From Deltaproteobacteria bacterium (GTDB lineage: Bacteria; Desulfobacterota; Binatia; Binatales; Binataceae), in the NCBI GenBank assembly GCA_021794015.1, contig JAJYRQ010000008.1:1-64000 (forward strand): 64,000 nt of DNA. The letters run 5' to 3'. Made by a program: the position numbers and the translations under genes. Every line of letters begins with the position of its first letter. Position 1 is the stretch's first letter. This document shows positions 39,634 through 56,202 of the stretch, one piece after another. The notes under the pieces were generated by a model. It ran no database searches. It saw only the letters and a list, made by a program, of their open reading frames with translations, and was not told the DNA's origin.

Positions 39634-40116
39634 TCAGGTCAGCCGCAACAGCAGTTCCAGGAACCGTACGCGATCGGCCGCGCTCAGCGGGCTGAGCGTA
39701 TCACGCGTCACCTGGAAGGCCTTGCCAACCAGGCGAGTCAGCAACCGCCGGGCCTGGGGCGTAAGCCGCAAGAGCTTTCGCCGCCCGTCTCTGGCATCCT
39801 CCAGCCGCGTCACCAGCCCGCGTTCGAGCAACCGTTCGACAACCGACCGGACGGTCGCCGGGTCCATGGCGGTAAGCCGCCCAAGGTGATTCTGCGATAC
39901 GCTGCGCTGCTGGTAAATGCGTACCAGCGTCGTCCACTGCCTGGGGGTGAGCCGATGGCGGCCGAAATGGCGCACAAAAATGGCCGTGGCGCGCTGATGG
40001 GCTTTGCGCAGCAGGAAACCTACCTGCTCTTCGAGCAAGTAGGTTTCCAGCGAGCAAGCGCCAACGGCACGGCCCGAGTGGGAATCGCTGTTTTGTCTGT
40101 AACGTCCGTTGCTCAT
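39634..40116 (-). CDS. MarR-family transcriptional regulator
   Basis: 160 aa from ATG 40116; a GTG at 40173 would add 19 residues, and neither has a good ribosome binding site. Winged-helix core: TPRQWTTLVRIYQQRSVSQN, recognition helix MDPATVRSVVERLLERGLV and wing RLEDARDGRRKLLRLTPQAR, flanked by dimerisation helices. MarR proteins typically repress degradation operons and release DNA on binding a small aromatic acid. As the last gene of the cluster it probably controls the operon starting at 56136. Confidence 0.9.
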   Translation of the reverse strand: MSNGRYRQNSDSHSGRAVGACSLETYLLEEQVGFLLRKAHQRATAIFVRHFGRHRLTPRQWTTLVRIYQQRSVSQNHLGRLTAMDPATVRSVVERLLERGLVTRLEDARDGRRKLLRLTPQARRLLTRLVGKAFQVTRDTLSPLSAADRVRFLELLLRLT

Positions 40117-40211
40117 GGTCGTGAGCGGCGCTTGGTGCTGGCTTACCCGGCAAGCCTGCCTGCGCGCCGCCACAACAACCCGCGCCCTCTTTGCAGCCGA
40201 AAGCCCGTCGG

Positions 40212-41405
40212 CTAAGCCGCAACGACCTCGGGCAGCCGGGTCGCAGGCGGCGTATTGCGGCTACGCCCGGTGCGTACCACGCCGTCGATTATCGTCATGC
40301 CCACCCCCGGGATATCGCCCAAGGCGACACTCTCGAGCAGGGTCTTGCCCGCCGAGTGCTGGGCCCGGTCCATGATGACCAAGTCCGCAGGCCGCCCGAC
40401 CTCGACCAGGCCCGCTTCAAGCCCGCGCATCCGCGCCGTATTCCCGGTTGCAAAACAGAAGGCCTGTTCGGGCGCCAGCTCGCCAACGCCTGAAAGCAGC
40501 GCCACCATCCGCAGGATGCCGAGCGGTTGGACGCCCGAGCCGGCCGGACTGTCGGTGCCGAGAATCACCCGCTGTAGCTGGCTCATTTCCTTGGCCGTGC
40601 GCAGGGTGTAAAGCGCGGCGCGCTCGTTGCCGTTGTGCACCAGCTCCAGCGCGCGCGCCGACGCTTCGCAAAGCACCCGGATTTGGTCGAGCGGCAGCGC
40701 CGTGTGTCCGCCGTTGACGTGGCCGATAACGTCAGGGTCCGCCTCGAGCACCACGTCCTTGTCGATTAGCCCCGAGCCCGGGATAGACGGGCCTCCGGTA
40801 TGGATCGTGCTGTTGATCCCGTACTTGCGCGCCCAGGCAACCATCTGGCGCGCCTCGGCCCCGGTTTTGACGCTGCCCAATCCGATCTCGCCAAGCAGCC
40901 CCACGCCCGCCTCGGCCAACTCCCTGAAGTCGCTCTCCACCATGCCTTGCTCAAGCACGGGCGCGCCCGCGCGCACCTTGACGCCGCTGGGGCGAAACTC
41001 GCTAAAGGCGCGCTGGGCGGTGATGGCCAGCGCCTTGAGTCCGACGATGTCCTTGGGGCGGCCCGGTAGATGCACCTCTCCGGCCGAGACCAAGGTGGTG
41101 ACGCCGCCGTGCAGAAAGCTGTCGATCCAGTTGAGCTGGGACTGGCGCGGCGTCCAGTCGCCGAACACCGGATGGGCGTGGCTGTCGATGAGGCCCGGAG
41201 CAACGGTCGTCCCCTTGGCGTCAATCACCGTGGCCGCCCCCTCGGCGTCCACCTCGGCAGCCCTGCCGACGGCGGCGATGCGGCCGTCCACCGCAACGAT
41301 TGTGTCGGCCTCGAGGATCGGTCGCCCGAGGTCGCCGGAGAGCAGAAGTCCGATGTTGCGAATTACCAGCTTGCCGGCCGCGCCGCTTGCTTGCGCTTGC
41401 GCCAT
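40212..41405 (-). CDS. Enamidase-like amidohydrolase
   Basis: 397 aa. The overall pattern closely follows my recollection of E. barkeri enamidase, which hydrolyses 1,4,5,6-tetrahydro-6-oxonicotinate to ammonium and (S)-2-formylglutarate. Shared features include an N-terminus of the KLVIRNIGLLLSGDLG type, LHGGVTTLVSAGEVHLPGRP, GEIGLGSVK and HTGGPSIPGSG, and a C-terminus of the SRNTPPATR type. Metal ligands expected for this amidohydrolase subtype are present: His76, His78, Glu173, His202, His229 and Asp285. It sits downstream of the ABC importer in the same orientation as the reductase and hydroxylase genes, supporting ring cleavage as its role. A generic imidazolonepropionase-like function remains possible. 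Confidence 0.82.
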   Translation of the reverse strand: MAQAQASGAAGKLVIRNIGLLLSGDLGRPILEADTIVAVDGRIAAVGRAAEVDAEGAATVIDAKGTTVAPGLIDSHAHPVFGDWTPRQSQLNWIDSFLHGGVTTLVSAGEVHLPGRPKDIVGLKALAITAQRAFSEFRPSGVKVRAGAPVLEQGMVESDFRELAEAGVGLLGEIGLGSVKTGAEARQMVAWARKYGINSTIHTGGPSIPGSGLIDKDVVLEADPDVIGHVNGGHTALPLDQIRVLCEASARALELVHNGNERAALYTLRTAKEMSQLQRVILGTDSPAGSGVQPLGILRMVALLSGVGELAPEQAFCFATGNTARMRGLEAGLVEVGRPADLVIMDRAQHSAGKTLLESVALGDIPGVGMTIIDGVVRTGRSRNTPPATRLPEVVAA

Positions 41406-41472: not shown

Positions 41473-42174
41473 CTAGACGGCCAGGTATGCCGCCCAGGAC
41501 GGCTCGTCGGCCGCCAGTTGCGTCATGGTGCCGCTGTGCCGGATACGCCCTTTTTCGATGACATAGGCGCGGTCGCCGACCAGCGCGGCGAAGCGTAAGT
41601 TCTGCTCGGCCAGCACCACGGTGAGCCCCTCGGACTTGAGTTCGCGCACCATCTGCGCCATGCGCGAGACGATGAGCGGTGCCAGTCCTTCGGACGGCTC
41701 ATCCAGCAGGAGCAGCGCCGGATTACCCATCAGCGTGCGCGCCACCGCCAGCATCTGCTGCTCCCCGCCGCTCATCATGGCGGCGCCCCGCCAGCGCATC
41801 TCACCCAGATTAGGAAAAAGCGCGAAAATCCGATCCACGGTCCAGCCGGGTGCGCCGGGCCGCGCCGGGCGGCGCCCCACCTCCAGGTTTTCCATCACCG
41901 TGAGCTCGGTAAAAATCCGCCGCTCCTCAGGCACGTAGCCGATCCCCAGCCGACTAACCGCGTAGGGCGGCAGGCCCCGAATCGAACGGCCGTGGAAGCG
42001 TATCTCGCCGCAGACCGGACGAACCAGGCCGATAACGCTCTTAAGGGTGGTCGATTTGCCCGCTCCGTTGCGCCCCAGCAGCACCACCACTTCGCCGCGC
42101 GCCACCTCGAGTTCGAGGTCCGACAGGATATGGGCCTGCCCATAAAACGTGTTAAGCCCGCGTACCGAAAGCAT
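41473..42174 (-). CDS. livF: LivF-type ABC transporter ATPase
   Basis: 233 aa. Walker A GRNGAGKSTT, signature MSGGEQQMLAVARTLMG, Walker B LLLLDEPSEGLAP. The high-affinity branched-chain amino acid (HAAT) family also moves amides and aromatic acids. The start is fused to the livG stop (TGATG at 42172-42176). Confidence 0.93.
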   Translation of the reverse strand: MLSVRGLNTFYGQAHILSDLELEVARGEVVVLLGRNGAGKSTTLKSVIGLVRPVCGEIRFHGRSIRGLPPYAVSRLGIGYVPEERRIFTELTVMENLEVGRRPARPGAPGWTVDRIFALFPNLGEMRWRGAAMMSGGEQQMLAVARTLMGNPALLLLDEPSEGLAPLIVSRMAQMVRELKSEGLTVVLAEQNLRFAALVGDRAYVIEKGRIRHSGTMTQLAADEPSWAAYLAV

Positions 42175-42932
42175 CAGGCGGCTCCCGCGACCTGGCCCAG
42201 GTAGACCTCGCGCACCCGAGCGTCCTGGCGCACCCGGCTCGGAGCGCCCTCGGCTATGATCTCTCCGCGGTCGAGCACAATAATGCGGTCGGCGTGGGCA
42301 AAGACGACATCCATGTCGTGCTCGGTGAAGAGGATTCCCATGCGCCGCTCGCGAGCGATCTCGGCGCTAAGCCGCATTAGCGCGCGCCGCTCCTCTGGCG
42401 CCATCCCGGCCGTCGGCTCATCCATCAGCAGCACCACCGGCCAATTGGCCAGCGCAATGGCCAACTCGACCCGCTTGAGATCGCCGTAGGCCAGAAGACC
42501 GCAGAGCCGCTCGGCCTGATCGGCCATCCCGACCCGCTCCAAAAGCTCGATTGCCTCCTCGACGTACAGAGCACCGGCCGGCCGCCAAAGACCGAGGACC
42601 CGGCGCCGGCCTGCGATGAGCGCCATCTGCACATTCTCCCGCACGGTCATCGAGCCGAACACCGCCGCGATTTGGAAGGTGCGCCCAACCCCGAGCCGGC
42701 AGAGCCGGCGCGCAGGCAACCCCACCAGCTCGCGCCCGTTTAACCGGATGCTGCCGCGCTCGGGCCGTAACTGCCCGCCCAGAATGTTAAGGCAAGTGGT
42801 CTTGCCGGCGCCGTTGGGCCCGATGAGCGCCAGAATCTCGCCCTCGCCAAGCTCGAAACTGACGCCGTTAAGCGCCGCCACGGCGCCGAAGCTCTTGGCC
42901 AGGCCGTTGACGGTCAGCAGGCTCACCCTCAC
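42174..42932 (-). CDS. livG: LivG-type ABC transporter ATPase
   Basis: 252 aa from GTG 42932, which overlaps the permease stop and has GGAGG just upstream. Walker A GPNGAGKTTC, signature LLAYGDLKRVELAIAL and Walker B VVLLMDEPTAGM are intact. It pairs with LivF to energise the permease at 42929-44788. Confidence 0.93.
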   Translation of the reverse strand: MRVSLLTVNGLAKSFGAVAALNGVSFELGEGEILALIGPNGAGKTTCLNILGGQLRPERGSIRLNGRELVGLPARRLCRLGVGRTFQIAAVFGSMTVRENVQMALIAGRRRVLGLWRPAGALYVEEAIELLERVGMADQAERLCGLLAYGDLKRVELAIALANWPVVLLMDEPTAGMAPEERRALMRLSAEIARERRMGILFTEHDMDVVFAHADRIIVLDRGEIIAEGAPSRVRQDARVREVYLGQVAGAA

Positions 42933-44788
42933 CGCCCTCCCTGCGCAAGCCTTGCGGCGCGCGCACCGATAAACCCTACGATTCCCCGCGGGAAAGCTAT
43001 CACCAGCGCGATAATGATCGCACCCACCACGGCGCGCCAGTAATCGGTCAGCGAACCAATCTGCTCTCTGAGACCGGTAAAGACCGCGGCGCCGACCGGC
43101 GAGCCCGCCATCGTCTCCAGCCCGCCCAGCAGCACCATCACGATGGCGTCGATCGACCTCGACACCGACATCACGGTCGGAAAGACGCCGCCCTTGGACA
43201 AGGCATAAAGCCCGCCGGAAATGCCGGCAAACAGCCCGGCCAGGCTGAAGGCGAGCCATTGATGGCGGCGCACGTCGATCCCGATTGCGTCGCAGCGCAG
43301 GGCAGAGTCGCGCCCGGCCCGCAGCGTGTAACCGAACGGGGCCCGCAAGACCCGCCGCAGCAGCGCGACGCAGCCGCCGCACAGGCCCAGCGCCAGATAA
43401 CAGAAGACCAGCTTGTTGCCGGCCCACGGCGCAGGCCATACCCCCAGCACCCCGTTGTCGCCCCCGGTCAGCGCGTCCCACTGAACGGCTGCCGCCCACA
43501 CCATCTGGGCAAAAGCCAGCGTCAACATCGCGAAATAAACGCCGGAAAGCCGAACACAAAACCAGCCGAACACCAGAGCGCCCACCCCCGCCAGAACGCC
43601 CGCCGCCGCCAGCGCCGCCGCCATTCCCCAGCCAAGCTTCGCAACCAAGAGGGCCACCCCGTAAGCCCCAAGGCCGAAATACGCCGCATGCCCGAAAGAG
43701 ACCAGCCCACCCGGACCCATCATGAAGTAAAGGCTGGCCGCAAACAGCGACAGTGTCGCCACCTCGGTCAGCACCACGCGGCCATAGTTGCCGCTTACCA
43801 GGGGCACCGCCAGCACCAGCGCGCAAAGCGTGTAGAGCAGCACCGCAGGCACCTGGAAACCGGCCCCTGTCCCAACCTCGACAGCCCGATTCATGCCGGC
43901 CTCGGGCTGCGGCCGGCCCAACAGCCCCTGCGGACGTATCACCAACACCACTGCCATCACCACGAAAATCAGCACCAGCGTCAGCTTTGGAAAAACCAGG
44001 ATGCCAAAGGTTTGCAGCTCTCCGATTATCACCGACGCCAAAAAGGCGCCCGCGATGCTTCCCATCCCGCCGACCACAACCACAACGAAGGCCTCGATGA
44101 TGATGCTCAAGTCCATCTGATGGTCGGCCGCTTCCAGCGGCAGTTGCACCGCTCCGCCCAACCCGGCTAAAAAAGCCCCGACGAAAAAGACGCCGGTGAA
44201 AAGCGTTGCCTGTCTTACCCCAAGCGCCCCAACCATCTCCCAGTCCTGCGTTGCCGCCCGCACCAGCGTGCCCCAGCGCGTGCGATGAACCAGCAGCCAC
44301 AAGCCGCCGGCGACGCCGACTCCCAGCGCGATAAGAAACAGCTCATACGAAGGGAACCGATGGCCGAACACCTCGATCGCGCCCTTCAACCCAGGCGCGC
44401 GAGGACCCAGCAAGTCCTGCGGACCCCAGATTGCCAGCACCGCGTCCTCCACCACCAGCACGACACCGAACGTGGCCAGCAGCGGGAACAACTCCGGCCC
44501 GCCGTACAACCGGCGCAGCACGAAAACCTCCATCGCCACGCCGATCAGTCCCACCGCGGCCGAGGCCAGCAGCAACCCGCCCCAGAAACCCACCGGCCCG
44601 CCGGCTCGGCTCACCAGGCTGTACGCAATGTAGGCGCCCAACATGTAGAACGAGCCGTGGGCAAAGTTGACGATGCGCGTCACCCCGAAGATGAGCGACA
44701 GGCCGCACGAGACCAGGAACAGCACCGCAGCCGTGGCAAGCCCGGTGAGCAACTCAATTGCGACGAAACTCAAAGCCGGATTCCCCAT
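42929..44788 (-). CDS. Fused LivH-LivM ABC permease
   Basis: 619 aa, about twice a single permease. Residues 1-300 are LivH-like (FGVTRIVNFAHGSFYMLGAY); residues 315-619 are LivM-like (GLVSFGHAAYFGLGAYGVAL and KSP-type loop GYTLRAGRDSALRCDAIGID). Around 16-18 membrane spans are expected. Fusion fixes 1:1 stoichiometry of the two halves. Neighbours livG and livF and the binding protein at 45018-46226 complete one importer. Confidence 0.93.
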   Translation of the reverse strand: MGNPALSFVAIELLTGLATAAVLFLVSCGLSLIFGVTRIVNFAHGSFYMLGAYIAYSLVSRAGGPVGFWGGLLLASAAVGLIGVAMEVFVLRRLYGGPELFPLLATFGVVLVVEDAVLAIWGPQDLLGPRAPGLKGAIEVFGHRFPSYELFLIALGVGVAGGLWLLVHRTRWGTLVRAATQDWEMVGALGVRQATLFTGVFFVGAFLAGLGGAVQLPLEAADHQMDLSIIIEAFVVVVVGGMGSIAGAFLASVIIGELQTFGILVFPKLTLVLIFVVMAVVLVIRPQGLLGRPQPEAGMNRAVEVGTGAGFQVPAVLLYTLCALVLAVPLVSGNYGRVVLTEVATLSLFAASLYFMMGPGGLVSFGHAAYFGLGAYGVALLVAKLGWGMAAALAAAGVLAGVGALVFGWFCVRLSGVYFAMLTLAFAQMVWAAAVQWDALTGGDNGVLGVWPAPWAGNKLVFCYLALGLCGGCVALLRRVLRAPFGYTLRAGRDSALRCDAIGIDVRRHQWLAFSLAGLFAGISGGLYALSKGGVFPTVMSVSRSIDAIVMVLLGGLETMAGSPVGAAVFTGLREQIGSLTDYWRAVVGAIIIALVIAFPRGIVGFIGARAARLAQGGR

Positions 44789-45017: not shown

Positions 45018-46226
45018 TCAGTCGGCCGGACGCATCTTGCGCACCTCGGCATCCGAGGGCAGATAGTCGGCGCCGTCGGCATAGTGCCAGTCAGCCATCA
45101 CTCCCTTGCCGTCCTGGACCGCGATCCGCCCGACGTAGGCCCCCATCGTCGATTGGTGGTCGATCGCCCGGAAAACGACCTTGCCGAAAGGTGTCGTCAG
45201 GCGCAGGCCTTGGGCCGCCTTGATAAGCTTGTCGGTGTCAAGCGAGCCTGCCCGCCGGATGGTGGCCGCCACCGCCATCATTGTACTGTAGCCCACCACC
45301 GAGCCCATGTACGGGTGTTCGTGAAACTTGGCCATATAAGCCTTGAGAAAGCGCGCGTGCTCGGGAGTCTTGATGGCGTACCAGGGGTAGCCGGTTACGA
45401 TCCAGCCGCGCGGCGCCTCGTCCTTGAGAGGTTCGAGGTACTCGGGCTCGCCCGTGAGCAGGCTCAAGACCGCGCGACGGGCGAAAAGGCCGCGGGTTTC
45501 GCCCTCGCGGACGAACTTGGCAAGGTCGGACGCGAAAAGTGCGCTGTAGATAGCCTCGGGCTTGCCTTCGGCCAGCGCTTCCACGGTGGCGCCGGCGTCA
45601 ATCTTGCCGAGTTGCGGCCACTGCTCGGCGACCCATTTAAGGCCCGGCCGTTTAACCGCCAGCAGCTTCTGAAAGTTGCGCACCGCCGACTGCCCGTACT
45701 CGTAGTTCGGCGCCACGGTCGCCCAGCGCCGGGCGGCCAGCCCGGCCGCCTCCCGGGCCAGCATCGCCGCCTGCATGTAAGTGTTGGGACGCAGGCGAAA
45801 CGTGTAGCGGTTGCCCTGCTCCCAGGTGATGGCGTCGCTCAGCGGCTCGCCGGCCATGAAAAAGACCCGGTTCTGCTTGGCAAAGCTGCTGACCGCAAGC
45901 CCTACGTTGGAGAGGTAGGTGCCGCTTATCAGCGCCACATGGTCCTTGCTCACAAGCTGCTGGGCGCGGTTGACCGCCTCGCCCGGCTTTGCGGCATCGT
46001 CGTAGGAGACAACTTCAAGCTTGCGGCCAAGCACGCCGCCCGAGGCGTTCACCTCGTCAACCGCCATGCGCCAGCCATTACGGTACGGGCCGGTATAGAG
46101 CGGGATGACGCTGTAGCTGTTGATGTCGCCGACCCGGATTGGCTCGGCAGCCTGCCCAGGCAAGGCTCCGGCCGCAAGCGCCAATGCCAGAACCGCTGCG
46201 TACGACACTACCCGTGTACTGCTCAT
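45018..46226 (-). CDS. LivK-type periplasmic substrate-binding protein
   Basis: 402 aa. Signal peptide at residues 1-27 (AAVLALALAAGALPGQAAEP). Type I periplasmic-binding fold: DINSYSVIPLYTGPYRNGWR then AVDEVNASGGVLGRKLEVVSYDD. Such proteins in catabolic clusters often bind aromatic acids, not amino acids. The ligand cannot be read from sequence, but the operon suggests a pyridine carboxylate. The 229 bp between it and the permease gene holds no gene. Confidence 0.9.
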   Translation of the reverse strand: MSSTRVVSYAAVLALALAAGALPGQAAEPIRVGDINSYSVIPLYTGPYRNGWRMAVDEVNASGGVLGRKLEVVSYDDAAKPGEAVNRAQQLVSKDHVALISGTYLSNVGLAVSSFAKQNRVFFMAGEPLSDAITWEQGNRYTFRLRPNTYMQAAMLAREAAGLAARRWATVAPNYEYGQSAVRNFQKLLAVKRPGLKWVAEQWPQLGKIDAGATVEALAEGKPEAIYSALFASDLAKFVREGETRGLFARRAVLSLLTGEPEYLEPLKDEAPRGWIVTGYPWYAIKTPEHARFLKAYMAKFHEHPYMGSVVGYSTMMAVAATIRRAGSLDTDKLIKAAQGLRLTTPFGKVVFRAIDHQSTMGAYVGRIAVQDGKGVMADWHYADGADYLPSDAEVRKMRPAD

Positions 46227-46276: not shown

Positions 46277-46864
46277 TCAGCGCAGGCCGTCTTCTCCCTT
46301 GATCTGGTCCTTGGTGAGGCCGCCGACGCGCGCCAGCGGCCGTCCGCTGTCGGTAACCGCCACGGCGACTACGATCTCGGCGGCCCTGGGCGCGTCAGCC
46401 ACCCGGACCTCCATCGCGTCGAAGTGACTGCGCACGAAGGCGGCGTCTTTGTGGCCCAGCGGCACGTCGATTGCGGTGCCGGCGCCGCCGGTTTTTTTGG
46501 CCGACGGCACCAGGGCGGCGCCCTTCTCGACCGCCTTGCGCAGCGGCTTGCCGAGTCGCGGATGCAAAATAGCCGCGGCGTGTTCGAGCTCTCCCGCCTC
46601 TCCCACGATTGCCGCCTTGCCGTAGCTTTCCGCCTGGCCGGGCGAGATACCGAGCGCGGCCACGGCTCTGCGGCCGAGGATTGCGCCCAACTCTTCGCCA
46701 ATTGCGATTAGCGGCTCGAGGTCTTCAACGAACCGCCCGGCGCACGGGTTTTCGACGACCGCGACGGCTGCGGCCTTGCGGGTGGGCGGCGCGATCTCTC
46801 GGCCCATTTCCCGATGGACCTCCTCGACCACGGTGACTAGCTTGCGTACTCGCGCCAAGCTCAT
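46277..46864 (-). CDS. AA_synth / DUF1185 family protein
   Basis: 195 aa. Matches the so-called amino acid synthesis family (DUF1185): RKLVTVVEEVHREMGREIAP, VVENPCAGRFVEDLEPLIAI, GEAGELEHAAAILHPRLGKP, KTGGAGTAIDVPLGHKDAAF and DSGRPLARVGGL. The biochemical role is not established to my knowledge. Here it lies between a UbiD-type decarboxylase and the ABC importer. A 7-bp GCCTGCC/GGCAGGC hairpin with a TTGC loop (46882-46899) sits in its 5' leader. Confidence 0.8.
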   Translation of the reverse strand: MSLARVRKLVTVVEEVHREMGREIAPPTRKAAAVAVVENPCAGRFVEDLEPLIAIGEELGAILGRRAVAALGISPGQAESYGKAAIVGEAGELEHAAAILHPRLGKPLRKAVEKGAALVPSAKKTGGAGTAIDVPLGHKDAAFVRSHFDAMEVRVADAPRAAEIVVAVAVTDSGRPLARVGGLTKDQIKGEDGLR

Positions 46865-47105
46865 GGCATTCGCTCCTTCCCGCCTGCCTTGCGGCAGGCA
46901 CGGTCGTTAGCCAACGCGCCTCGAAGGCCGGCGCGCCAGCGGCCCTACTGCCAGCGCCGAGGCCGCCCTCGCGCGCGCCATTCTACCGCCTCTAAGTCAA
47001 TCGCCGTTGGTTTACTGCCGAAACCATCTCTTCCCACACTTTGCAAAACCGACCCTCAACGCGCCGGGCCCAGACAAGGTCTCTTGGTCAGCGCCCGCCG
47101 GGCGC

Positions 47106-48530
47106 TCAGTCAGCCGAAACTTTTCCGGCCCGGCTGCGCAGGCGCGCCAGGATTTTTTCAAGCATCCCGTCCTCCGCGCCCATCGGCTTGACCCGCTCGA
47201 AGGTGTCGCGGTCCTTCTGGCGCCAGGTCGGAGGTTTGGTCGCGTCGATCGCCATTTTCCCTCCGATCCGCATCACCGTAACCTCGGCCTCGTCGTAGCG
47301 GGGCGCCGAAATATCCAGCGGATGAATCCGCTCGTGCGGGATAACGATCACGTCCTTTTCCGGATTAACCCGGGTCGAGAGCGCCCAGAATACCTCCTTG
47401 GGATCGTACACGTTGACGTCTTCGTCGACTGCTATCGCGATTTTCGGATGCAGATTGGGACTGGTGAGCGCCGCCAGCAACACGTCGCGCGCCTGCCCTT
47501 CCCACCTGGGCGTCATCTGGACAAAGACCACGAACATCGTCACCCAGCTTGGAATGTAGACCTCGTGAATCTCGCTAAAGCCATGCACCTCGCGCAGCCG
47601 GTTGTAAAGCGTCGCCGCCATTGGCAGGGACACCAGCACCTGGTGGTCGGTGAAGAGGGTCGCCTGGACGTGGCGAAAGATTGGGTTTTTCCGATGCGTG
47701 ATGCCGGTGATCTCCCAAACCGGGGCGGGCCCGGCGGCGCCGTGCCGGTAGCCGGTGAACTCGCCGAATGGACCTTCCATCTCCCGTAGTTTGGGCCGCA
47801 CGATGCCTTCGATGATTATCTCGGCATGGGCGGGAACCTCGAGATCGATGGTTTCGCACTTGACCAGTTCGAGAGTTTCTCCGAGCACGCCGGCTCCCAG
47901 CTCGAGCTCGTCCCAGGTGTCGTGCTGGCCGCTGTAGTTGGACAGGATTTCGTAGCCCGGATGGACGCCGATCGCGTAGGCCATCGGCATCGGCTCGCCC
48001 CTGGCCTCATATTTCTGGTAGTGGCGCCAGTTGTGGCGGGCAGCCATCCAGAACGGGATGCGGCGCGGCTCCCGCACCAGCGCCCGGATCATAGCCTCGT
48101 TGCGCACCCCGGTCTCGGGATCCTTGGTGATAGTGACGCCCGACCCGATGTAGCGTCCGGCATCGCCCGCCGAGTGAATCGGCACCGGGATCTGCGTCAC
48201 GTCGGCGTCCTTTCCGAGCCGCTTCACCTCCTTGCACGGACCGTCCGATACGATAACTGATCGGCCAGGACCGTGCTTGAACATCCGCTCGGCCAGGTAC
48301 GGCACCAGGCTCTTTTCGGAAGCCCCGAGGGCGAGCGCCTGGGTCTGCCGGTCGGCCAAGAGCCGGTCGCACAAGCGCCAGCCTGGAAAGCCGCTTAGCC
48401 GGTGCAGCATGAAGGGATGCAAACTTTCCGAGGCAAGCACGCCGGCCTGCCGGATCGGGTCAACCTGGTCGTGAATATTGACCAAACGCTCGCCGAGCTC
48501 TTCAAGAAAACTTCTCAAGCTAGCGGCCAT
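47106..48530 (-). CDS. UbiD-family decarboxylase
   Basis: 474 aa from the second of two adjacent ATGs (48530, AGGAGAG upstream). UbiD enzymes use prenylated FMN for reversible (de)carboxylation of aromatic or alpha,beta-unsaturated acids. Features: SAGDAGRYIGSGVTITKDPE, the Arg in NEAMIRAL, catalytic glutamates in EGPFGEFTGYRHG, and C-terminal VDEDVNVYDPKEVFWALSTR. No UbiX prenyltransferase is in the window. Its position suggests removal of a ring carboxylate from the imported substrate, or action on a downstream unsaturated acid. Confidence 0.92.
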   Translation of the reverse strand: MAASLRSFLEELGERLVNIHDQVDPIRQAGVLASESLHPFMLHRLSGFPGWRLCDRLLADRQTQALALGASEKSLVPYLAERMFKHGPGRSVIVSDGPCKEVKRLGKDADVTQIPVPIHSAGDAGRYIGSGVTITKDPETGVRNEAMIRALVREPRRIPFWMAARHNWRHYQKYEARGEPMPMAYAIGVHPGYEILSNYSGQHDTWDELELGAGVLGETLELVKCETIDLEVPAHAEIIIEGIVRPKLREMEGPFGEFTGYRHGAAGPAPVWEITGITHRKNPIFRHVQATLFTDHQVLVSLPMAATLYNRLREVHGFSEIHEVYIPSWVTMFVVFVQMTPRWEGQARDVLLAALTSPNLHPKIAIAVDEDVNVYDPKEVFWALSTRVNPEKDVIVIPHERIHPLDISAPRYDEAEVTVMRIGGKMAIDATKPPTWRQKDRDTFERVKPMGAEDGMLEKILARLRSRAGKVSAD

Positions 48531-48659
48531 CATCTCTCCTCTCGAAGCCGCCAAGCCGCCCTCTGCCGCCGCGTGCCGCCGGCCTCTTGCTTGCGTCCGT
48601 CGGTTTCCTTCAATAACCGGCCGGCATCAACCCGGGCCGGCTCTTGCGGCTCCCTTTGC

Positions 48660-49976
48660 CTAAGCCGGCAGCTCCTTGCCCCTGGTCTCGATCCCGAAGG
48701 GAATCACCAGCATCGCCAGAAGCAGAACAAGCGAGCTTAGCGCGATCGGCGCACCCACCGTGCCGAAATATTTTATTCCCCCTCCAACGAGGTAAGTGGC
48801 CGCGGCCGTCACAAAACGTCCGACTCCAAGGGCAAAGGCCATGGCGCTCGCCCGTTGTTCAGTGTGATACTGCTCGGGCACCCAGATGGTATAGACAGTG
48901 AAGCTTCCGCCACCGATCCCGAGCACGAAGACACATACCAGAAACCAGCCAAGCGCGCCCGAGGCCATGTAGTAAACGTGGCCAAACCCGACCGCGATCG
49001 CCACCATGGCGAGAAAAAAGTAGACGACACCGGCGCCCTTGCGGCCCAGCCGATCGGCCACCCTGGGGCAAACCAGGTGTCCGACAATGGTGCCGATTGC
49101 AACCACCATGAAGGCGTTCGAGGCGAGCTCGGCCGCCCGTTGGCGGCTAAGCCCGTTGCGCAGCGCCAAAAGGCTTATCGTTGCGGGAACATAGGCGGTG
49201 CCCGCCCAATAGCCGACCATCGCTCCCATGAGCACCACGGCGTTCACGATGGTTCGCCGGCGGTACTCTCTTGTGAAAAGCCCGAAAAGCGGCTCCCGGG
49301 CCGAGAGCTTGCCGCCGATCTCTTGCATCCGCTTCTCCCACCGCTCAGGCTCTTTCACACAGTAGCGGATGAAAGCCACCAGAAGCGCCGGCAGGCCGCC
49401 GAAGAGGAACATGGCGCGCCAGCCGAAATGAGCGCCGATCGTGTAATTGGCCAGCGCCGCCAAGAAAGTTCCGACCGGAAACCCGGTGTTCAGATATCCG
49501 ATTCCACGGGTCCTTGCCTGCTCGGGCCACTCTTCGCTGATGAACGCGCTCGAGATGGAATACTCTCCGCCCACTCCGATACCGGCCAGCAGGCGCAGCA
49601 CCGCCAGGTGCCAGACGTTCGAGGCAAAGCCGCAAAGCGCCGTGAAAAGCGCATACCACAGGACCGTCAAGCTAAGGGTGCGCACCCGGCCGAAGCGATC
49701 GGCAACCGGCCCCCAGCAGGCCGACAGGCCCCACCCGATTAGAAACATCGCGAAAAGAAAGCCGCCCTGGGCGCCCAGGTTCGCCTCGGTCGCGGCCATC
49801 CCCGAGGCGGGCAAAAGCTCGCGCAACGCCGGCACCAGGACCAGGCCGAAGATCGAGGCATCCATCCCGTCCAGGGAGTAGCCGCCCCAGGCGGCCAACA
49901 GGCCCAGTTTCTGATTGCGGGTAAGCGGCTGCCGGGGCGCGGCCTCAACTGCATCCTTGGCGCTTTGAGCCAGCAT
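48660..49976 (-). CDS. MFS transporter, aromatic acid:H+ symporter-like
   Basis: 438 aa, twelve predicted membrane helices. N-terminal LAAWGGYSLDGMDASIFGLV (charged Asp residues in helix 1) and the loop motif GPVADRFGRVRTLSL resemble the aromatic-acid:H+ symporter (AAHS) group of PcaK and BenK. It would offer proton-driven uptake in addition to the ABC importer. Placed between UbiD and UPF0280. Confidence 0.87.
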   Translation of the reverse strand: MLAQSAKDAVEAAPRQPLTRNQKLGLLAAWGGYSLDGMDASIFGLVLVPALRELLPASGMAATEANLGAQGGFLFAMFLIGWGLSACWGPVADRFGRVRTLSLTVLWYALFTALCGFASNVWHLAVLRLLAGIGVGGEYSISSAFISEEWPEQARTRGIGYLNTGFPVGTFLAALANYTIGAHFGWRAMFLFGGLPALLVAFIRYCVKEPERWEKRMQEIGGKLSAREPLFGLFTREYRRRTIVNAVVLMGAMVGYWAGTAYVPATISLLALRNGLSRQRAAELASNAFMVVAIGTIVGHLVCPRVADRLGRKGAGVVYFFLAMVAIAVGFGHVYYMASGALGWFLVCVFVLGIGGGSFTVYTIWVPEQYHTEQRASAMAFALGVGRFVTAAATYLVGGGIKYFGTVGAPIALSSLVLLLAMLVIPFGIETRGKELPA

Positions 49977-50032: not shown

Positions 50033-50971
50033 CTACGCTGCCAACGTCTCGGCGAGACGAAGCCAGCGCCGGTCAAGTCCGTGGCTTACGACCCGGTAGT
50101 GGCCGAACAGGGTTATCACCGCGCCATAGATGAGCCCGGATGCGCAAAGCTCTTCGGCCTTGGCTGCTCCCTGGGCCAGCGCGGCGCCAATTTCATCGAC
50201 GCCTAGCGCGCCGACCGAGAAGGTAACCGGGATGTCGCCCAGATCGCTTTGCGGGTCGAGTTGCCGGGCCGCAAGCCGGCGGATGGCCGGGTGGCCGGGG
50301 CCAAGGTCCACGGCGTTGCCGACTACCGTGGCGGCGGCGTCGGCTGCGGCTGCGTCGCCGGCCAGGACGGTTGCCGAATCGGCGATGCCGAGCGAGAAGC
50401 TGCGCCCGCCCCGCCCCTTTGTCGAGCGCCCGCTGGTGGCCACCCCGCGCACCGGCAGCGCCGCATCGATCTCCACGACGCCGAAGATCTCCGGCCTTGT
50501 CACGTCCGCCACAATTCCCGCCCGCAGCATCTCGTCCGGGCCCAGGTAAAGCGCAATATCGCCCCCGTTGTTGACGTAGGCGCGCCGAAGGCGCCGGCCG
50601 CAAGCCATCGCCTCGAGCACTTCGTCGGCAACCGCCCCCGCCACCGCCGCCATCGGCGTGATGAACCGATCGCGGTAGGGCCAGCAGGCAGCCACCATTC
50701 TCTGCGCCACGGGCCCCTCGACCTGGGGAAACGCCTGCCCCAGCGGACGACGCAAGACCGGCAACTCCTCGACCAGCGCGGCCAGCAGACCCTGCGCGCG
50801 CTCCCGCGCTTGTCCATACGCCCGGCGCACCTCCTCGGCCGCGCCAAACGCCTCGATAATCAGGTCTATCGGCCCGTGCTGGATACGCAAGCGCCGGCCG
50901 TCGGGCAGCAAGGCGCAGAACGGCGCTCCGCCCGGCGGCCGGGCCTGGCCCAAGGCCGGCGCACCGCTCAC
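50033..50971 (-). CDS. UPF0280 family protein (ApbE-like fold)
   Basis: 312 aa from GTG 50971, which overlaps the upstream reductase stop (GTGA). UPF0280 signatures: ITPMAAVAGAVADEVLEAM, YVNNGGDIALYL, GVATSGRSTKGRGGRSFSLG, IADSATVLA and DPQSDLGDIPVTF. The family is placed in the same structural superfamily as ApbE, the FAD:protein FMN transferase. Overlap with a homologue of 6-hydroxynicotinate reductase, an enzyme reported to hold covalent flavin, suggests a role in its flavinylation. That is an inference: the canonical ApbE nucleotide-binding motifs were not verified. Confidence 0.85.
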   Translation of the reverse strand: MSGAPALGQARPPGGAPFCALLPDGRRLRIQHGPIDLIIEAFGAAEEVRRAYGQARERAQGLLAALVEELPVLRRPLGQAFPQVEGPVAQRMVAACWPYRDRFITPMAAVAGAVADEVLEAMACGRRLRRAYVNNGGDIALYLGPDEMLRAGIVADVTRPEIFGVVEIDAALPVRGVATSGRSTKGRGGRSFSLGIADSATVLAGDAAAADAAATVVGNAVDLGPGHPAIRRLAARQLDPQSDLGDIPVTFSVGALGVDEIGAALAQGAAKAEELCASGLIYGAVITLFGHYRVVSHGLDRRWLRLAETLAA

Positions 50972-52467
50972 GAGAGCCCCCGGCGCAGCGGCGGCTCGGC
51001 GTCGAAAGGCCACGGGTTGGCCGCGTGCCAAGCGGTGATTCGCACGCGGTCGGCGCGGCCGACCTCTTCGATCCGGCGGATGCTCTTGATATGGCCGCCC
51101 AGCACGCGGTAATCGTCAAGCCGCAGCGTAAACTCGATCGGCGCCACGATCGCCGGAGTCGGCACATAGCCGAAGGCGTTTTCCGGCATCCGCGTCACAT
51201 CGACCATGTAGGTAATTCCGCCGCCGGGCCATACGTAAACCGGCGCGCCGCCCGAGGTAACCCGGGTGAGCGCCGCTTTGACCGAGCGCGTGAGTCTGAC
51301 CGGGTTCTCGGTCACGCCGGCGCGCAGCGAGCCTCCCGCGCCGGCCATGAACAGCACGGAGACCAGGGCCGGCTCGCAGTTTTCCCCGATCCGCTCGACC
51401 ACGGCGCGCACCGCCGGCGGCATCCGGGCCGCCTGCGGCCTTAGCTTATCGTCCAAGATGAAATAGGCGGCATCCTCGCCCGTCGTGCTGACCAGCAAGA
51501 GCCGAAGACCGGGCCACGCGGTCCGAGCGTCGATCGACTCGATGACCGACAGCGGCTCGCTGATATTCGTCCCGCCCCAGCCGGTGCCGGGCTCGGCGAC
51601 CTGGAAGTAGCGGCCCGGCGTCGAGCGCCGCCCGCGCACCCTAATCCCGGCGGGACGCAGCCCGAGGAAACGGCCCGCCTGATGCTCGGTGAGCACGCCG
51701 GTGATATGGTCGTCCACCACGACGACCTCGTCGACGTGACCGGCCCACTGTCTGGCAAAGATGCCGATTGTGGCCGATCCGCAGCCGACCCGCATCCGCT
51801 CCTCCTCGACCCCGTTGATAATCGGCGCTTTGCCGGCCTGGACGGTAAGCCTGGCACCGCCCTCAACGGCCAACTCGACCGGCTCCCGGTTGCATAGCTT
51901 GAGCATCGTCTGGCAGGCGACCCTGCCTTCTTTCTTGCCGCCCCCGGTTAGGTGGCGCACGCCGCCCACGGCCAGCATCTGCGAGCCGTACTCGGCAGTG
52001 GTCACGTGACCGACCTGCTCGTCCTGGCAGCGCACGGCTGCCTGCTCGGGTCCGATGAAGCGGTCGGTGTCGATCTTCAGCTTCACCCCGCAGTAGCTGA
52101 AGATTCCCTCAGTGACCACGGTCACCATATCGACGCCGTGATGTTGGCTGGCCACGATAAAGGGCGCTGGCTTGTAGTCCGGGTAGGTCGTGCCGGACCC
52201 GATCCCGGTCGGGAAGAGCGCCTCGGCCGGCACCGGTGGTCCCGAGACGATCCCGCCGTCCCACTCGGGATTGGCAAGAAACGCCACCATATCGCCGCCC
52301 CGGTCGCGCACCTTTTGTGCGACCACCAGCGAGTCCGTCCGCCTAAGCACGCCGCCGACGTTGCCGTAGCGGTCGCAGGCGCCGGTGCGGCCGGCCCGGA
52401 TGCGGCAGAGCACGGGGCAAGCGTCGCAGACAACGATTCCCGGGTCGGCCTGTTCGCCGTCAGCCAT
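50968..52467 (-). CDS. 6-hydroxynicotinate reductase-like Fe-S flavoprotein
   Basis: 499 aa from ATG 52467 (AGGAGG upstream). In E. barkeri the homologous enzyme reduces 6-hydroxynicotinate to 1,4,5,6-tetrahydro-6-oxonicotinate with covalent flavin and several Fe-S clusters. Here Cys14, Cys17, Cys21 and Cys31 form an N-terminal CX2CX3CX9C [4Fe-4S] motif. Cys126, 147, 185, 192 and 229 could supply further sites. A GCGSAT stretch (228-233) loosely resembles ApbE flavinylation sites, with Thr233 as possible acceptor. It overlaps the hydroxylase gene by 8 bp and UPF0280 by 4 bp. The assignment rests on remembered family resemblance and context. Confidence 0.78.
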   Translation of the reverse strand: MADGEQADPGIVVCDACPVLCRIRAGRTGACDRYGNVGGVLRRTDSLVVAQKVRDRGGDMVAFLANPEWDGGIVSGPPVPAEALFPTGIGSGTTYPDYKPAPFIVASQHHGVDMVTVVTEGIFSYCGVKLKIDTDRFIGPEQAAVRCQDEQVGHVTTAEYGSQMLAVGGVRHLTGGGKKEGRVACQTMLKLCNREPVELAVEGGARLTVQAGKAPIINGVEEERMRVGCGSATIGIFARQWAGHVDEVVVVDDHITGVLTEHQAGRFLGLRPAGIRVRGRRSTPGRYFQVAEPGTGWGGTNISEPLSVIESIDARTAWPGLRLLLVSTTGEDAAYFILDDKLRPQAARMPPAVRAVVERIGENCEPALVSVLFMAGAGGSLRAGVTENPVRLTRSVKAALTRVTSGGAPVYVWPGGGITYMVDVTRMPENAFGYVPTPAIVAPIEFTLRLDDYRVLGGHIKSIRRIEEVGRADRVRITAWHAANPWPFDAEPPLRRGLS

Positions 52468-55294
52468 CGCGGTTGCCTCCTCTGGCCGCGCCGCCGTGCT
52501 CTTGCGAGAGGGCGGCGCGCCCGCGCCGGGCAAGCAACCCGGCCCGCACCCGGTCGGGGGTTGCCGGCAGGCGCCGGATGCGAACGCCGGTTGCGTGGTA
52601 GATCGCGTTGAGAATCGCGGGCGCCGTGGGGATTAGCGCCGGCTCACCGATTCCTTTTGCGCCGAAAGGCCCCTGCGGCTCAACCGTCTCAATCGCCATA
52701 ACCTCGATCGCCGGCATGTCGCCGACGGTCGCAATCAGGTAGTCATGCAGGTTTTCGTTCACGCCGGGAACGAACTCTTCCATTAGCGCCATTCCCAGGC
52801 CCTGAGCGATTCCGCCATGCACCTGGCCCTCGACCTGAGTCGGATTGATCGCTCGGCCGACGTCGTGAGCGGCAACCATCCCGAGCACCTTTACCGTGCC
52901 TAGGTCGAGATCGACTTCCACCTCGGCCATCTGGGCGGCAAAGGCGTAAGTCGCGTAGGGAACGCCCGCGCCGTTTTCATCCAGCGCCGTCGTGGGAGGA
53001 TCGAAACGGCCCATGCCGACCAGCACGTCGCCGCCGTCTGAGGCCTTGAGCGCGCCAAGCTCAATAACCCGCCTGAGGTCGCCGTAGCTGACCACGACGG
53101 TGCTCCCCTCGAGGCTCACGGCCGCCTGCTCGGGCATCCCGGCAAGCTTCAGGATTCGGCTGCGCAGGTCTCGGCCCGCGAGCTCTGCGGCCCGGCCGGA
53201 AATAAATGTCTGGCGCGAGGCCGACGTCTTGCCGGCGTCGGCGGTCAGGTCGGTGTCGCCCGTAACACACTGGAACGAATCGGCCGGCATCCCGAGGGCG
53301 TCCGCGCAGATTTGCACCAGGATCGTGTTCGAGCCCTGGCCGATATCGACCGCGCCGTTGTAAAGCGTAAGCCGCCCCTCGGCGCTAAGGCCGACTTTCA
53401 TGGTCGAGGGGTTTGACATCGAGGTGTTGCCGATTCCGTACCACATGCAGGCGATTCCGACGCCGCGCTGGCGAACACCCCCGATGAGATTGAACTGCTC
53501 GGCCTCGGCGCGCGCCGCCCGCCAGCGCGGCTCAAGCGCCTGCAAGCACTGAAGCAGCCCCGCGCTTTGGCCGAGCCGCTGGCCGCTGGCCGTGATTGCG
53601 CCCGGACCGAGCGCGTTTTGCCGGCGAAACTCCAGCGGATCGATACCGGCACGTTCGGCCAACTCGTCCATCAGCGTTTCATGCACAACCGCGGCCTGGG
53701 GAACACCGAAGCCGCGAAAGGCGCCGGCCGGCGTCTCGTTGGTGTAAACGGCGCGCGTCGTCGCCCTAACCGCTCCGACTTGGTAAGGGCCGCTGGCGTG
53801 AATCGGCACCCGCTGCGCCACCGTAGGCCCCCAGGAAGCGTAAGCGCCGGTGTTGAAGTCGCCGTGGAACTCGACCGCGGTGAGCCGCCCGGCGCCGTCG
53901 CAGGCAAACCGCGCGGTCATCAGCGCCGGATGGCGCTTGGTTGTTGCCGCCATCGATTCGGGGCGCGTGTAAACGCACCGCACCGGCCGATTAAGCAGCC
54001 AGGCCGCGGTCGCCACCAGCGGCTGGAGCGAAATATCCAGCTTGCCGCCGAAGCCGCCGCCTACCGCGGTCGGCACGATCCGCACTTGGTCCGGGCGGGC
54101 CCCCAGGACCGCGGCGATTTCATCCCGGTCCAGGTAAGGCGTCTGCGTGCAGGCGACGACCTCGATTCGGTCCACCCCGCCTTCGCCTCTCACCCGGCGG
54201 GCGTAGCCAGCCTCCGGTTCGATATAGGCATGCTCGACAAACGCAGTCTCGAAGCGGCCCTCGACCACGGCGGCGGCGCCGGCAAAGCCCGCGCCCAGAT
54301 CGCCCCGGCTGACCCGGCCCCGCACCAGCACGTTGTCGGGCCGTTCCGGATGGAGCGCTGGCGCGCCCGGCGCGAGCGCCGCCTCGATCCCAATCAACGG
54401 CTGCTGGGGCTCCCAGCTAATCGGCAACTTCTGGTCGTCAATCGCTTCGATCGCGGCGCGCTCGCCCACCAGAGCCGCTATCGCCTCGCCGCGAAAACGA
54501 ACGAAGCCCTCGGCCAGCACCGGCTGGTCCTTGAGATCGGGGTAGATGCCGAAGCGATTGCGCCCGACAATATCGCGCGCCGTCAGCACGCGCACGAGCC
54601 CCGGATGGCGCGCCTGCAACTCGGCAAACGAGCCCAGCCGAAAGCGCGCGCAGGCGTAAGGCGAGCGCACCGCGTGCAGCCAAAGCGCGTCGGCCGGCGC
54701 CACGTCGTCGCCGAAGCGCTCGGCGCCAAGCAGCTTGGCGATCCCGTCGGTCTTGGGTATCCGCGCGCCCACCGCTGCCTCGACCGAGCCCGGGGCAGGC
54801 TGCGCTGGGCGCCTCTGGCCGGCCAACTCGGGGCGTGCCGCGGCCAGCACCGCCTCGACTATCTTGCGGTAGCCGGTGCAGCGGCAAAGCACCCCGCCCA
54901 AGGCATCCCGCACCGCGCTTTCGTCGGGACTTGGATTGCGCTCAAGCAGATCGGCCGCCGCCATCAGCATGCCCGGCGTGCAAAAGCCGCATTGGGCCGC
55001 GCCGCCTTGGTGAAAGGCGCGCTTGAGCCGGCCCGGCACGCCGCCCTCGGACAAGCCCTCGACCGTCACCACCTTGCGCCCCACCGCCTGCCCCACCGCC
55101 ACCAGGCAGGAACAGACCTGCCTGCCGTCGAGCAGCACGGTGCAGGCGCCGCAGTCGCCGGCCTCGCACCCGACCTTGGTGCCGACCAGCCCGAGCGTCT
55201 CGCGCAGCACGCGGGAAAGCCGCCAGAGCGGCGGCACGCTAAGCGAGACCTGGCGGCCGTTGACCTCGAAGCTCAGCACGGTGTCCTCGCTCAC
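52460..55294 (-). CDS. Fused [2Fe-2S]-molybdopterin hydroxylase (xanthine dehydrogenase family)
   Basis: 944 aa, GTG start overlapping the FAD-subunit stop (GTGA). Residues 1-155 are the small subunit with two [2Fe-2S] sites: Cys43/48/51/63 and Cys102/105/137/139. Residues 175-915 are the molybdenum subunit: [23 protein letters not shown] and the catalytic Glu in [14 protein letters not shown]. Such enzymes hydroxylate N-heteroaromatic rings with water-derived oxygen. With the reductase and enamidase downstream, nicotinate or a related pyridine carboxylate hydroxylation at the carbon next to N is the best guess. The two-domain fusion omits the FAD subunit, which is encoded just upstream. Confidence 0.92.
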
Positions 55295-56136
55295 GCCCCC
55301 TGGCTCCCCAACTCGCCCAGCAGGCGGCGCACCAGCGTAAGCGCCGCGTCGCGCCGGTAGGCGGCAGTTGCGCGAATGTCGTCGATCGGGCGCAGCCCCT
55401 CCAGATGCTCGGCAGACGCCGCGCCGCCCAGGCGCCCGTCAAGCGGCCGGCCAACCAGCACCCGCTCCAGTGCAAAGAGCCGCTGGGCCGCCGCCGAGCA
55501 GGCGCCCACCGCAACCCGCGCCGCCGCCACCTTGCCGTCGGCCGTCGCCTCGAGCAGCGCCGCGACCATGACAATCGAAATGACCAGGTAGGCGCGCGCC
55601 CCAAGCTTGAGGAAGCGGCTGCGCGCCGGCCGGGAAGGCTCCGCGATGAGCAGCGCCGTCACCAGCTCGTCCGGCCGGCGCGCCGTCCGGCGGTTGCCCA
55701 GGATGAACGACCCTATCGGCACCAGCCGCCGCCCGCCGAGCGAGGCAAGCTCCACTACGGCGTCGAGCGCAAGCAGGTTGGGAACGCTGTCGGCGGCCGG
55801 CGAGGCGTTGCAGATGTTACCGCACAGGGTGGCGCGGTTTTGCACCTGCTCGCCGCCGATAGTGCGGGCCGCCTGCTTAAGCCCCTCAAACCAGGAAGGC
55901 AGCGAAGCGTCCCGCAACTCGGCCTAGGTGGTGAGCGCTCCGATACGCCAAGTCGAGCCCTGGCGGGTGATCCCGTTTAGCGCAGGGATGGCGCTGATGT
56001 CGAGCACGTCGTCCGAAAGCGGGCGACCGACCCGCGCGGGGTAGAAATCGGTGCCGCCGGCCAGGACGACGTAACGCCCGGCGCGTAGCGCCCGCAATGC
56101 GCCGTCGAGTTCCGCCGGCCGCACGTAATCGCCCAC
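55291..56136 (-). pseudogene. FAD-binding subunit of the hydroxylase, interrupted by in-frame TAG
   Basis: Read through, 281 codons: the normal length of a CoxM/XdhB-type FAD subunit. GTG start 56136 has GGAGG seven bases upstream. The N-terminal part holds VVLAGGTDFYP; after the break come NRATLCGNICNASPAADSVP and LGARAYLVISIVM. The frame is broken only at 55924-55926: IGALTT-TAG-AELRD, where relatives commonly have Trp (TGG). Both sides remain in the same frame. So this is a recent nonsense mutation, a sequencing or assembly error, or a read-through site. If truly broken, the hydroxylase would need another electron partner. Confidence 0.85.
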
Positions 56137-56167
56137 CGTGGCGCCTCCAACCCGGAAGATCGTTTGT

Positions 56168-56202
56168 GTACATATGAATCAAAACCACGCCCCGCCTGTC
56201 AA
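56168..56202 (-). promoter_or_regulatory. Predicted promoter of the catabolic operon
   Basis: Minus-strand TTGACA (56197-56202) is followed about 19 bp later by an A+T-rich TCATATGTACA run that can serve as -10. The run TTTGTGTACATATG, unusual in this G+C-rich DNA, has partial dyad symmetry (TTTG...CAAA over 21 bp), fitting a MarR or GntR operator. It lies 32-66 bp upstream of the FAD-subunit start. Confidence 0.4.

Follow-up and report, generated by a model that had tools for sequence, protein, structure and literature searches.

The 64,000-nucleotide stretch analysed here (the window; part of a 101-kb contig from a Deltaproteobacteria bacterium of the family Binataceae) carries on its minus strand, at 39634-56190, a nicotinate-type catabolic cluster in which a gene of the UbiD decarboxylase family lies next to one of the DUF1185 (AA_synth) family. 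We think it probable that this is a cluster for the reductive breakdown of nicotinate, that its DUF1185 protein acts on the product of the ring-opening enamidase, and that UbiD and the adjoining major facilitator superfamily (MFS) transporter are an added accessory, with UbiD and DUF1185 not forming a functional pair. The argument runs from gene identities, association counts, tree placement and conserved residues, all of them observed, to substrates and reactions, all of them predicted.

A sequence-only reading of the window had taken UbiD and DUF1185 as a pair, suggesting that the true substrate carries an additional carboxylate or that an unsaturated acid is decarboxylated downstream. What it observed was confirmed and its interpretation is partly supported. 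The two genes do adjoin as open frames with matches to PF01977 and PF06684 (the end at 48530 that it gave for UbiD corresponds to a start codon farther along this frame). As a meaningful pair, however, they did not hold up: DUF1185 follows the nicotinate route where this UbiD is missing, and no DUF1185 was found in the 11 tested genomes that carry close relatives of the UbiD.

The nicotinate character of the cluster, also proposed by that reading, stands. 6-hydroxynicotinate reductase (Hnr), an enamidase and a molybdenum hydroxylase are present together, the combination by which the reductive route via 1,4,5,6-tetrahydro-6-oxonicotinate (THON) was recognised. The enamidase is the firmest assignment, 2vun (which we take to be the enamidase of Eubacterium barkeri) being the sole solved chain under 1e-15 (Table 1). 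Hnr was matched to four plasmid proteins annotated as 6-hydroxynicotinate reductase (61-66% identity). For the hydroxylase, aldehyde oxidoreductases were the best solved matches (3.5e-116) and outranked nicotinate dehydrogenase 3hrd (3hrd_A 1.4e-73, 3hrd_B 6.6e-67), so its substrate was assigned by context. Gene content thus predicts that the organism converts nicotinate, which would pass through 6-hydroxynicotinate and THON to 2-formylglutarate. The opening of THON to (S)-2-formylglutarate is described in PMC9304392, and the aerobic nicotinate route is described as passing via glutarate (PMC3511419). As the step from a C6 acid to glutarate costs one carboxyl, decarboxylation is part of the known route even without UbiD. 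The sequence-only statement that nicotinate catabolism does not need a UbiD enzyme therefore agrees with the survey below but is incomplete; the candidates for this carboxyl loss are DUF1185 or an enzyme of the methylmalonate-semialdehyde dehydrogenase (MMSDH) type, rather than UbiD.

The UbiD gene and its relatives

Co-occurrence was followed across 118 loci, comprising 51 from the host's phylum chosen for DUF1185 (49 of them with Hnr) and 63 alphaproteobacterial and 4 gammaproteobacterial loci chosen for Hnr (L204-L243, L258-L284). The phylum loci represent 51 of the 58 other DUF1185-positive genomes, with L063, which shares its contig with L285, and L091, one genome's second and weak hit with no cluster around it, left out; 4 of 6 gammaproteobacterial Hnr matches were used, the other 2 being weak. 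Thresholds were over 150 bits for Hnr, over 250 for the enamidase, over 600 for HyuA and over 60 for the others. Several contigs end near Hnr, where the absence of a neighbour is weak evidence. None of the 118 loci contained an orthologue of the window UbiD (a match of at least 300 bits); the route does not normally include this enzyme, in keeping with the sequence-only view that nicotinate catabolism as known does not need a UbiD. Three phylum loci contain a distant UbiD at 122-132 bits, compared with 771-782 bits for 11 full-length copies from Rokubacteria.

Relatives were sought by a scan of genome contigs, from which the best 80 of 174 matches (79 loci) were taken. Among the matches listed, those at 65-71% identity occur only in 12 Rokubacteria loci (L110-L120, L122), the next being a Poribacteria metagenome-assembled genome (MAG) at 43%, followed by relatives at 38% and less. 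Unlike the window, none of the 12 Rokubacteria loci (genes called with a codon-position rule) revealed Hnr, DUF1185 or enamidase, the sequence available being as short as 3.5 kb in L115 and 5.3 kb in L122. All 11 tested Rokubacteria genomes that bear the relative, whose completeness is not given, were likewise negative for PF06684. The neighbours there are an HpaB-type monooxygenase in 8 of the 12 loci (L114 with fragments only) and TctA plus xdh-like genes in 3, L115 being too short to tell. Apart from the window copy, the matches listed for the host's class (148 genomes) all stay at or below 44%, and ten loci around relatives of 40-44% (the genome's own contig C17 included) contained no Hnr, no DUF1185 and no clear hint of a substrate. 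UbiD and DUF1185 were therefore not co-inherited in this sample, given the lack of an orthologue in the 118 loci, the lack of the three nicotinate genes beside the Rokubacteria relatives, and the 44% ceiling in the host's class. Elsewhere, a MAG labelled Deltaproteobacteria RIFCSPLOWO2_12_FULL_60_19 carries five UbiD-type genes in the same orientation over roughly 10 kb (L160, 10-20 kb).

The window protein has both UbiD family domains (PF01977, Table 1; UbiD_C, PF20696, E 3.2e-28) and scores 264.8 bits against TIGR00148 'UbiD family decarboxylase' (cut-off 244.85). An active prenylated flavin mononucleotide (prFMN) enzyme is plausible, because R157, E260 and E265, which by alignment to HmfF are presumably the catalytic Arg and two Glu, do not vary among 27 aligned sequences, and two UbiX-family prenyltransferases over cut-off are encoded elsewhere in the genome (contigs C43 and C2). 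Curated NCBIfam cut-offs were missed for UbiD sensu stricto (142 against 788 bits), phenylphosphate carboxylase alpha (156 against 565), menaquinone decarboxylase (156 against 496) and VdcC (252 against 650). A 35-row tree included 26 of the 79 loci and 3 of the genome's 4 other UbiDs, L192 yielding no motif-bearing open reading frame (ORF). Here the window protein and ten Rokubacteria rows form a clade (support 100/100), HmfF belongs to a separate 12-row clade (100/99), and E. coli UbiD and PpcA stand apart, both on long branches. The enzyme thus neither scores nor clusters as UbiD sensu stricto or phenylphosphate carboxylase, and tight clustering with either would have spoken against the sequence-only interpretation.

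HmfF (6h6v) is the best solved relative in sequence as well as in fold, where it reaches Z 48.0 against 42.3 for the next family, at 34% identity across the structural alignment. Besides the catalytic residues, His296 of 6h6v is kept, aligning with H304 of the window protein, whereas Arg304 of HmfF is not. This His is reported to determine specificity in PMC7976604, where it is numbered H297. The genes around the window UbiD are of nicotinate type, and no search aimed at hmfABCDE was made. The window shares its hydroxylase, Hnr, enamidase and ABC (ATP-binding cassette) transporter with the reductive (THON) clusters known from Eubacterium barkeri, Azorhizobium and Bradyrhizobiaceae SG-6C, the gene content having been matched via plasmid loci L102 and L103. 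The window differs in having MFS-UbiD between UPF0280 and DUF1185 and in lacking the first of two DUF1185 copies (AA1; the second, AA2, is of the window's type): the order is UPF0280-AA1-AA2 in L102, L103 and L216 but UPF0280-MFS-UbiD-AA2 here. By these comparisons UbiD would be an added accessory decarboxylase, from a Rokubacteria-type clade beside that of HmfF.

Since the MFS gene lies 105 nt upstream of UbiD, the simplest reading would be import and decarboxylation of a (hetero)aromatic acid, with UbiD stripping a carboxylate from what the permease brings in and possibly feeding the nicotinate route. No informative close plasmid relative of the MFS gene was found, the best being an unannotated Caballeronia stretch (45%) and the next a Streptomyces plasmid (39%). 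Against an accessory status, both genes are in line with the cluster and the gaps are small (241 nt between UbiD and DUF1185), so that co-transcription and a role inside the route are possible.

Three other roles for UbiD were weighed. It may be a passenger whose aromatic-acid substrate has no link to nicotinate and which, along with its permease, merely ended up among these genes, an explanation that we regard as possible though not the likelier one: the lack of an orthologue in the loci surveyed and the monooxygenases or tricarboxylate-type transporters that accompany its relatives speak for it, whereas a position mid-cluster on the same strand with short gaps does not. More doubtful is a narrower form of the sequence-only idea, and one version of the feeding role just described, namely that UbiD alone decarboxylates a pyridine dicarboxylate (e.g. 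2,5- or 2,3-pyridinedicarboxylate) to nicotinate or 6-hydroxynicotinate, the true growth substrate then being a dicarboxylate imported by the MFS protein. HmfF, its nearest solved relative, converts 2,5-furandicarboxylate to 2-furoate (PMC12064950), the active-site His is kept, and the gene adjoins one for an aromatic-acid-like transporter inside a pyridine cluster. However, the loss of Arg304, Rokubacteria relatives free of every nicotinate gene searched for, and the failure to find a pyridine UbiD among titles and abstracts of openly licensed literature all count against it.

It is rather unlikely that UbiD decarboxylates within the route itself, using THON (a cyclic acrylic acid) or the enol of 2-formylglutarate. 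UbiD enzymes do act on alpha,beta-unsaturated acids (PMC8988006), the glutarate branch appears from PMC3511419 to lose a carboxyl, and the window lacks the AA1 copy that relatives carry at that place. However, the route gets by in 118 other loci with no such UbiD, and neither Hnr nor DUF1185 nor enamidase was seen in the Rokubacteria loci. Replacement of AA1 by UbiD was considered and is weakened, as AA1 is also missing from 6 of 16 proteobacterial enamidase loci, none of which has UbiD.

DUF1185 and the ring-opening enzymes

The window DUF1185 protein, the only one in the genome, scores 245.4 bits against PF06684 (Pfam cut-off 27), and its best solved chain is 2qtp (E 4.3e-85), the structure of SPO0826 (PMC2954203). 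In the host's phylum 395 genomes were counted, that of the host among them: 56 contain both Hnr and DUF1185, 3 Hnr only, 3 DUF1185 only and 333 neither. Of 67 Hnr matches, 8 had been dropped beforehand as weak (E 9e-5 to 9e-4). DUF1185 is hence present in 56/59 Hnr-positive but 3/336 Hnr-negative genomes (Fisher p 1.7e-60, shared ancestry uncorrected). Of the 56 double-positive genomes, 55 have the two genes on a single contig no more than 13 kb apart, and 45 no more than 5 kb apart. The usual order in phylum loci is hydroxylase-enamidase-Hnr-UPF0280-DUF1185.

Hnr was found in 63 of 376 Alphaproteobacteria genomes sampled and, as a strong match, in 4 of 369 from the class of Paraburkholderia. 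The 67 resulting loci carry an enamidase in 16 cases and HyuAB-type (hydantoinase/oxoprolinase) genes in 21, never both, with neither in reach in 30; enamidase and HyuAB are two alternative ring-opening modules of proteobacterial Hnr clusters. Proteobacterial DUF1185 proteins fall into two main groups, AA1, which adjoins UPF0280, and AA2. A quick tree of 95 DUF1185 rows recovered an AA2 branch of 54 rows (Shimodaira-Hasegawa-like approximate likelihood ratio test, SH-aLRT, 85) and an AA1 branch of 31 rows (99), the window protein, with its linked enamidase, being within AA2. AA2 accompanies the enamidase in 16/16 proteobacterial Hnr loci and HyuAB in 1/21 (L233; p 1.3e-9, shared ancestry uncorrected), whereas AA1 shows no preference for either ring-opener (10/16 enamidase and 10/21 HyuAB loci). 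DUF1185 thus appears to be tied to the enamidase rather than to Hnr as such, since 30 of the 67 loci have no ring-opener in reach and 24 no DUF1185 in reach. Plasmid locus L104, where HyuAB stands with two DUF1185 copies, is a further exception.

Possible role of DUF1185

DUF1185 of the AA2 type is most likely a regular companion of the enamidase that would act on its product, 2-formylglutarate; the related TgnF may have a like part in trigonelline breakdown. As an acid-base enzyme it would convert the released enol or 2-formylglutarate for the next step, either by tautomerisation or by decarboxylation to glutarate semialdehyde, the latter being possible. Nicotinate and trigonelline breakdown both pass through a 2-formyl-dicarboxylate, the end products being succinate semialdehyde for trigonelline and C5/C6 acids for nicotinate. 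The DUF1185 tree has a third group (7 rows, support 99), which includes the TgnF-type copies from trigonelline-type clusters on named plasmids, namely those of Acinetobacter sp. PK01 (with annotated tgnA, tgnB and tgnC), Rhizobium etli p42c, Sinorhizobium meliloti pSymA and Leisingera. The last three clusters have the same make-up as that of PK01, and DUF1185 is found directly before the cluster's alpha/beta hydrolase gene in each. TgnF and HcdD (the latter compared by description) belong to the same Pfam family as the window protein; the TgnF-type rows form a separate tree group from it but have its conserved polar residues in common. Conservation reaches 1.00 in each of the three groups (55, 31 and 6 rows) at K83, E92, E94, H95, H101, R109, R145, R175 and R179; here the AA2 group takes in all phylum rows, including L066 and L068 from outside the AA2 branch, and L252_7246, L250 and L106 are left out. 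These residues look like an active site suited to an acidic ligand; the structure paper reads several of them as inter-subunit salt bridges (PMC2954203). A single-sequence AlphaFold2 model of DUF1185 reached a predicted local distance difference test (pLDDT) score of 40.6 and was not used for fold search. Separately, on a plasmid of Arthrobacter dokdonellae (L252), a cluster resembling those for trigonelline includes a gene of the tautomerase family and a tandem pair of DUF1185 genes.

Several observations weigh against such a role. DUF1185 was not in reach in 24/67 proteobacterial Hnr loci, some of which end at a contig edge, and is therefore not needed by every Hnr cluster. DUF1185 also occurs outside both pyridine routes in four plasmid contexts (L107-L109, L250). 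To our knowledge no 2-formyl acid occurs in 7-hydroxycoumarin breakdown, which includes the DUF1185 protein HcdD. In its authors' tests HcdD had no stimulating effect (PMC7913881).

Two further observations bear on DUF1185 as a decarboxylase. An MMSDH-type aldehyde dehydrogenase, which could itself decarboxylate, was detected in 27/51 phylum loci (among them L065, L078, L080, L088-L090 and L297) and lies within 220 nt of DUF1185 in 13 of the 27. The best family of all five scanned members is the CoA-acylating methylmalonate-semialdehyde dehydrogenase, with one of the five over cut-off; one member matched three solved chains, each an enzyme of that type. As MMSDH-type enzymes act on 2-formyl acids with release of CO2, conversion of 2-formylglutarate to glutaryl-CoA is the natural prediction, and these genes suggest it for the host's phylum; the host's own best relative has 37% identity and is on another contig. 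Secondly, a 3-hydroxyisobutyrate-dehydrogenase-type enzyme was found in 2 of 40 phylum loci (L064 and L095), where it would reduce 2-formylglutarate without loss of CO2, as expected for a reductive branch. The idea that DUF1185 must be the decarboxylase is weakened by both enzymes. Because DUF1185 occurs with both alike, its step more likely precedes theirs, as an enol tautomerisation or a related acid-base step.

DUF1185 could also be no route enzyme at all, serving as stabiliser or regulator of a dehydrogenase or as an environmental sensor, which we consider doubtful. TgnF is reported to stimulate TgnE-dependent oxidation of succinate semialdehyde (PMC7913881), and the structure paper, which covers SPO0826 (2qtp) and BB2672 (3byq), proposes amino-acid metabolism or sensing, including sensing of pH or salt, besides its reading of conserved residues as subunit salt bridges (PMC2954203). 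It also places SPO0826, a close homologue of the window protein, beside branched-chain-type ABC transporter genes. However, nine invariant polar residues resembling an active site for an acidic ligand, and co-occurrence with different dehydrogenases or none, are difficult to reconcile with this, and the context of the window protein, unlike that proposal, points to nicotinate breakdown.

The boldest combination strikes us as unlikely. Here DUF1185 would be a dedicated tautomerase or decarboxylase of 2-formyl-dicarboxylates in both the nicotinate (2-formylglutarate) and trigonelline (2-formylsuccinate) routes, and UbiD the first prFMN decarboxylase of a pyridine carboxylate, widening the cluster to a pyridine dicarboxylate. 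In agreement with the sequence-only statement that DUF1185 lacks an established reaction, the openly licensed literature searched yielded neither an assigned reaction nor a proposal of the role put forward here.

Setting of the cluster and its significance

The genes of the cluster are listed in order in Table 1. Of the 116 Hnr loci, 109 have a UPF0280 gene within reach (47/49 phylum, 62/67 proteobacterial). Because Hnr carries a covalent flavin and UPF0280 is, we assume, ApbE-like, UPF0280 may attach that flavin to Hnr. An in-frame TAG at 55924-55926 within the FAD subunit of the presumed nicotinate dehydrogenase indicates either a decayed gene or an assembly error. No sigma-70-like site was found in a promoter scan of the cluster, and terminator-like sites numbered 22 against 15.3 expected, an excess that bears no interpretation. 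The alpha subunit of a Rieske-type dioxygenase, for which the route offers no evident task, is encoded in 12 of the 67 proteobacterial Hnr loci (L205, L207, L208, L211, L214, L223, L242, L259, L274, L277, L279 and L281) and in two plasmid clusters (L103 and L104).

Table 1. Genes of the nicotinate-type cluster in the window, with the evidence for each assignment.
Feature	Position	Strand	Evidence
MarR-family regulator	39634..40173	-	PF01047 E 1.8e-11
Enamidase-type amidohydrolase, predicted ring opening of tetrahydro-6-oxonicotinate	40212..41405	-	2vun enamidase E 6.3e-115; 73% to L102 amidohydrolase
ABC transporter ATPase, LivF type	41473..42174	-	ORF; named by reading and by position like annotated ABC ATPase genes of L102, L103
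ABC transporter ATPase, LivG type	42174..42926	-	C-terminal part of ORF 42174-44300; position as in L102
Fused ABC permease, LivH-LivM type	42929..44788	-	UrtB/UrtC/LivM-type matches below cut-offs; 57% to L102 permease
ABC substrate-binding protein	45018..46226	-	PF13458 E 9.8e-66; 57% to L102
DUF1185/AA_synth, AA2 subtype	46277..46864	-	PF06684 E 3.1e-73; AA2 clade in tree; 75.5% to second AA_synth of L102
UbiD-family prFMN decarboxylase (predicted), Rokubacteria-type, HmfF-like	47106..48554	-	PF01977 E 1.3e-55; 69-71% to 11 Rokubacteria proteins
MFS transporter, aromatic-acid symporter-like, directly upstream of UbiD	48660..49976	-	PF07690 E 4.1e-37; TIGR00895 160.9 bits, below cut-off 418.55
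UPF0280 protein	50033..51031	-	NF003322 'hypothetical protein' 348.3 bits, cut-off 290; 2o34 E 9.8e-9; 47% to L102 UPF0280
6-hydroxynicotinate reductase (Hnr)	50968..52533	-	61-66% to Hnr of L102, L104, L105, L251; no Pfam or NCBIfam match
Fused 2Fe-2S and molybdopterin subunit, presumed nicotinate dehydrogenase	52460..55294	-	PF02738, PF20256, PF01799; 52% to L103 cluster protein
FAD subunit of hydroxylase	55291..56190 (outer bound approximate, upstream start not fixed)	-	PF00941 (later half of model), PF03450

The cluster region (39634-57371) begins directly after genes for tRNA-Trp, Thr, Gly and Tyr (38646-39352), near rpoB. Neither Hnr nor DUF1185 turned up in the 15 genomes listed for its family or class, and this, together with the position beside tRNA genes near rpoB, suggests that the cluster was gained horizontally. 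An assembly or binning artefact, for which the same 15 genomes, the 61 contigs of the 3.33-Mb assembly and the in-frame stop might be cited, is very improbable, as rpoB, ribosomal-protein genes and the four tRNA genes lie beside the cluster in the same window and contig, and G+C is alike across the junction (0.62-0.72). RpoB has 72% identity to its counterparts in two MAGs labelled Deltaproteobacteria, and 60 and 57% to those of a Sphingomonas and a Paraburkholderia.

The window thus holds a cluster of familiar type, unusual in the added MFS-UbiD, and provides a useful, testable lead on DUF1185. It illustrates that a decarboxylase-permease unit can turn up within a heterocycle cluster, which is a warning against reading each neighbour as a partner. 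Two DUF1185 structures have been public since 2010 (PMC2954203). With DUF1185 subtypes tied to particular ring-opening enzymes, the function of the family is narrowed to a few testable reactions on 2-formylglutarate; if true, a role on 2-formyl-dicarboxylates would explain what this family, with its two solved structures, does.

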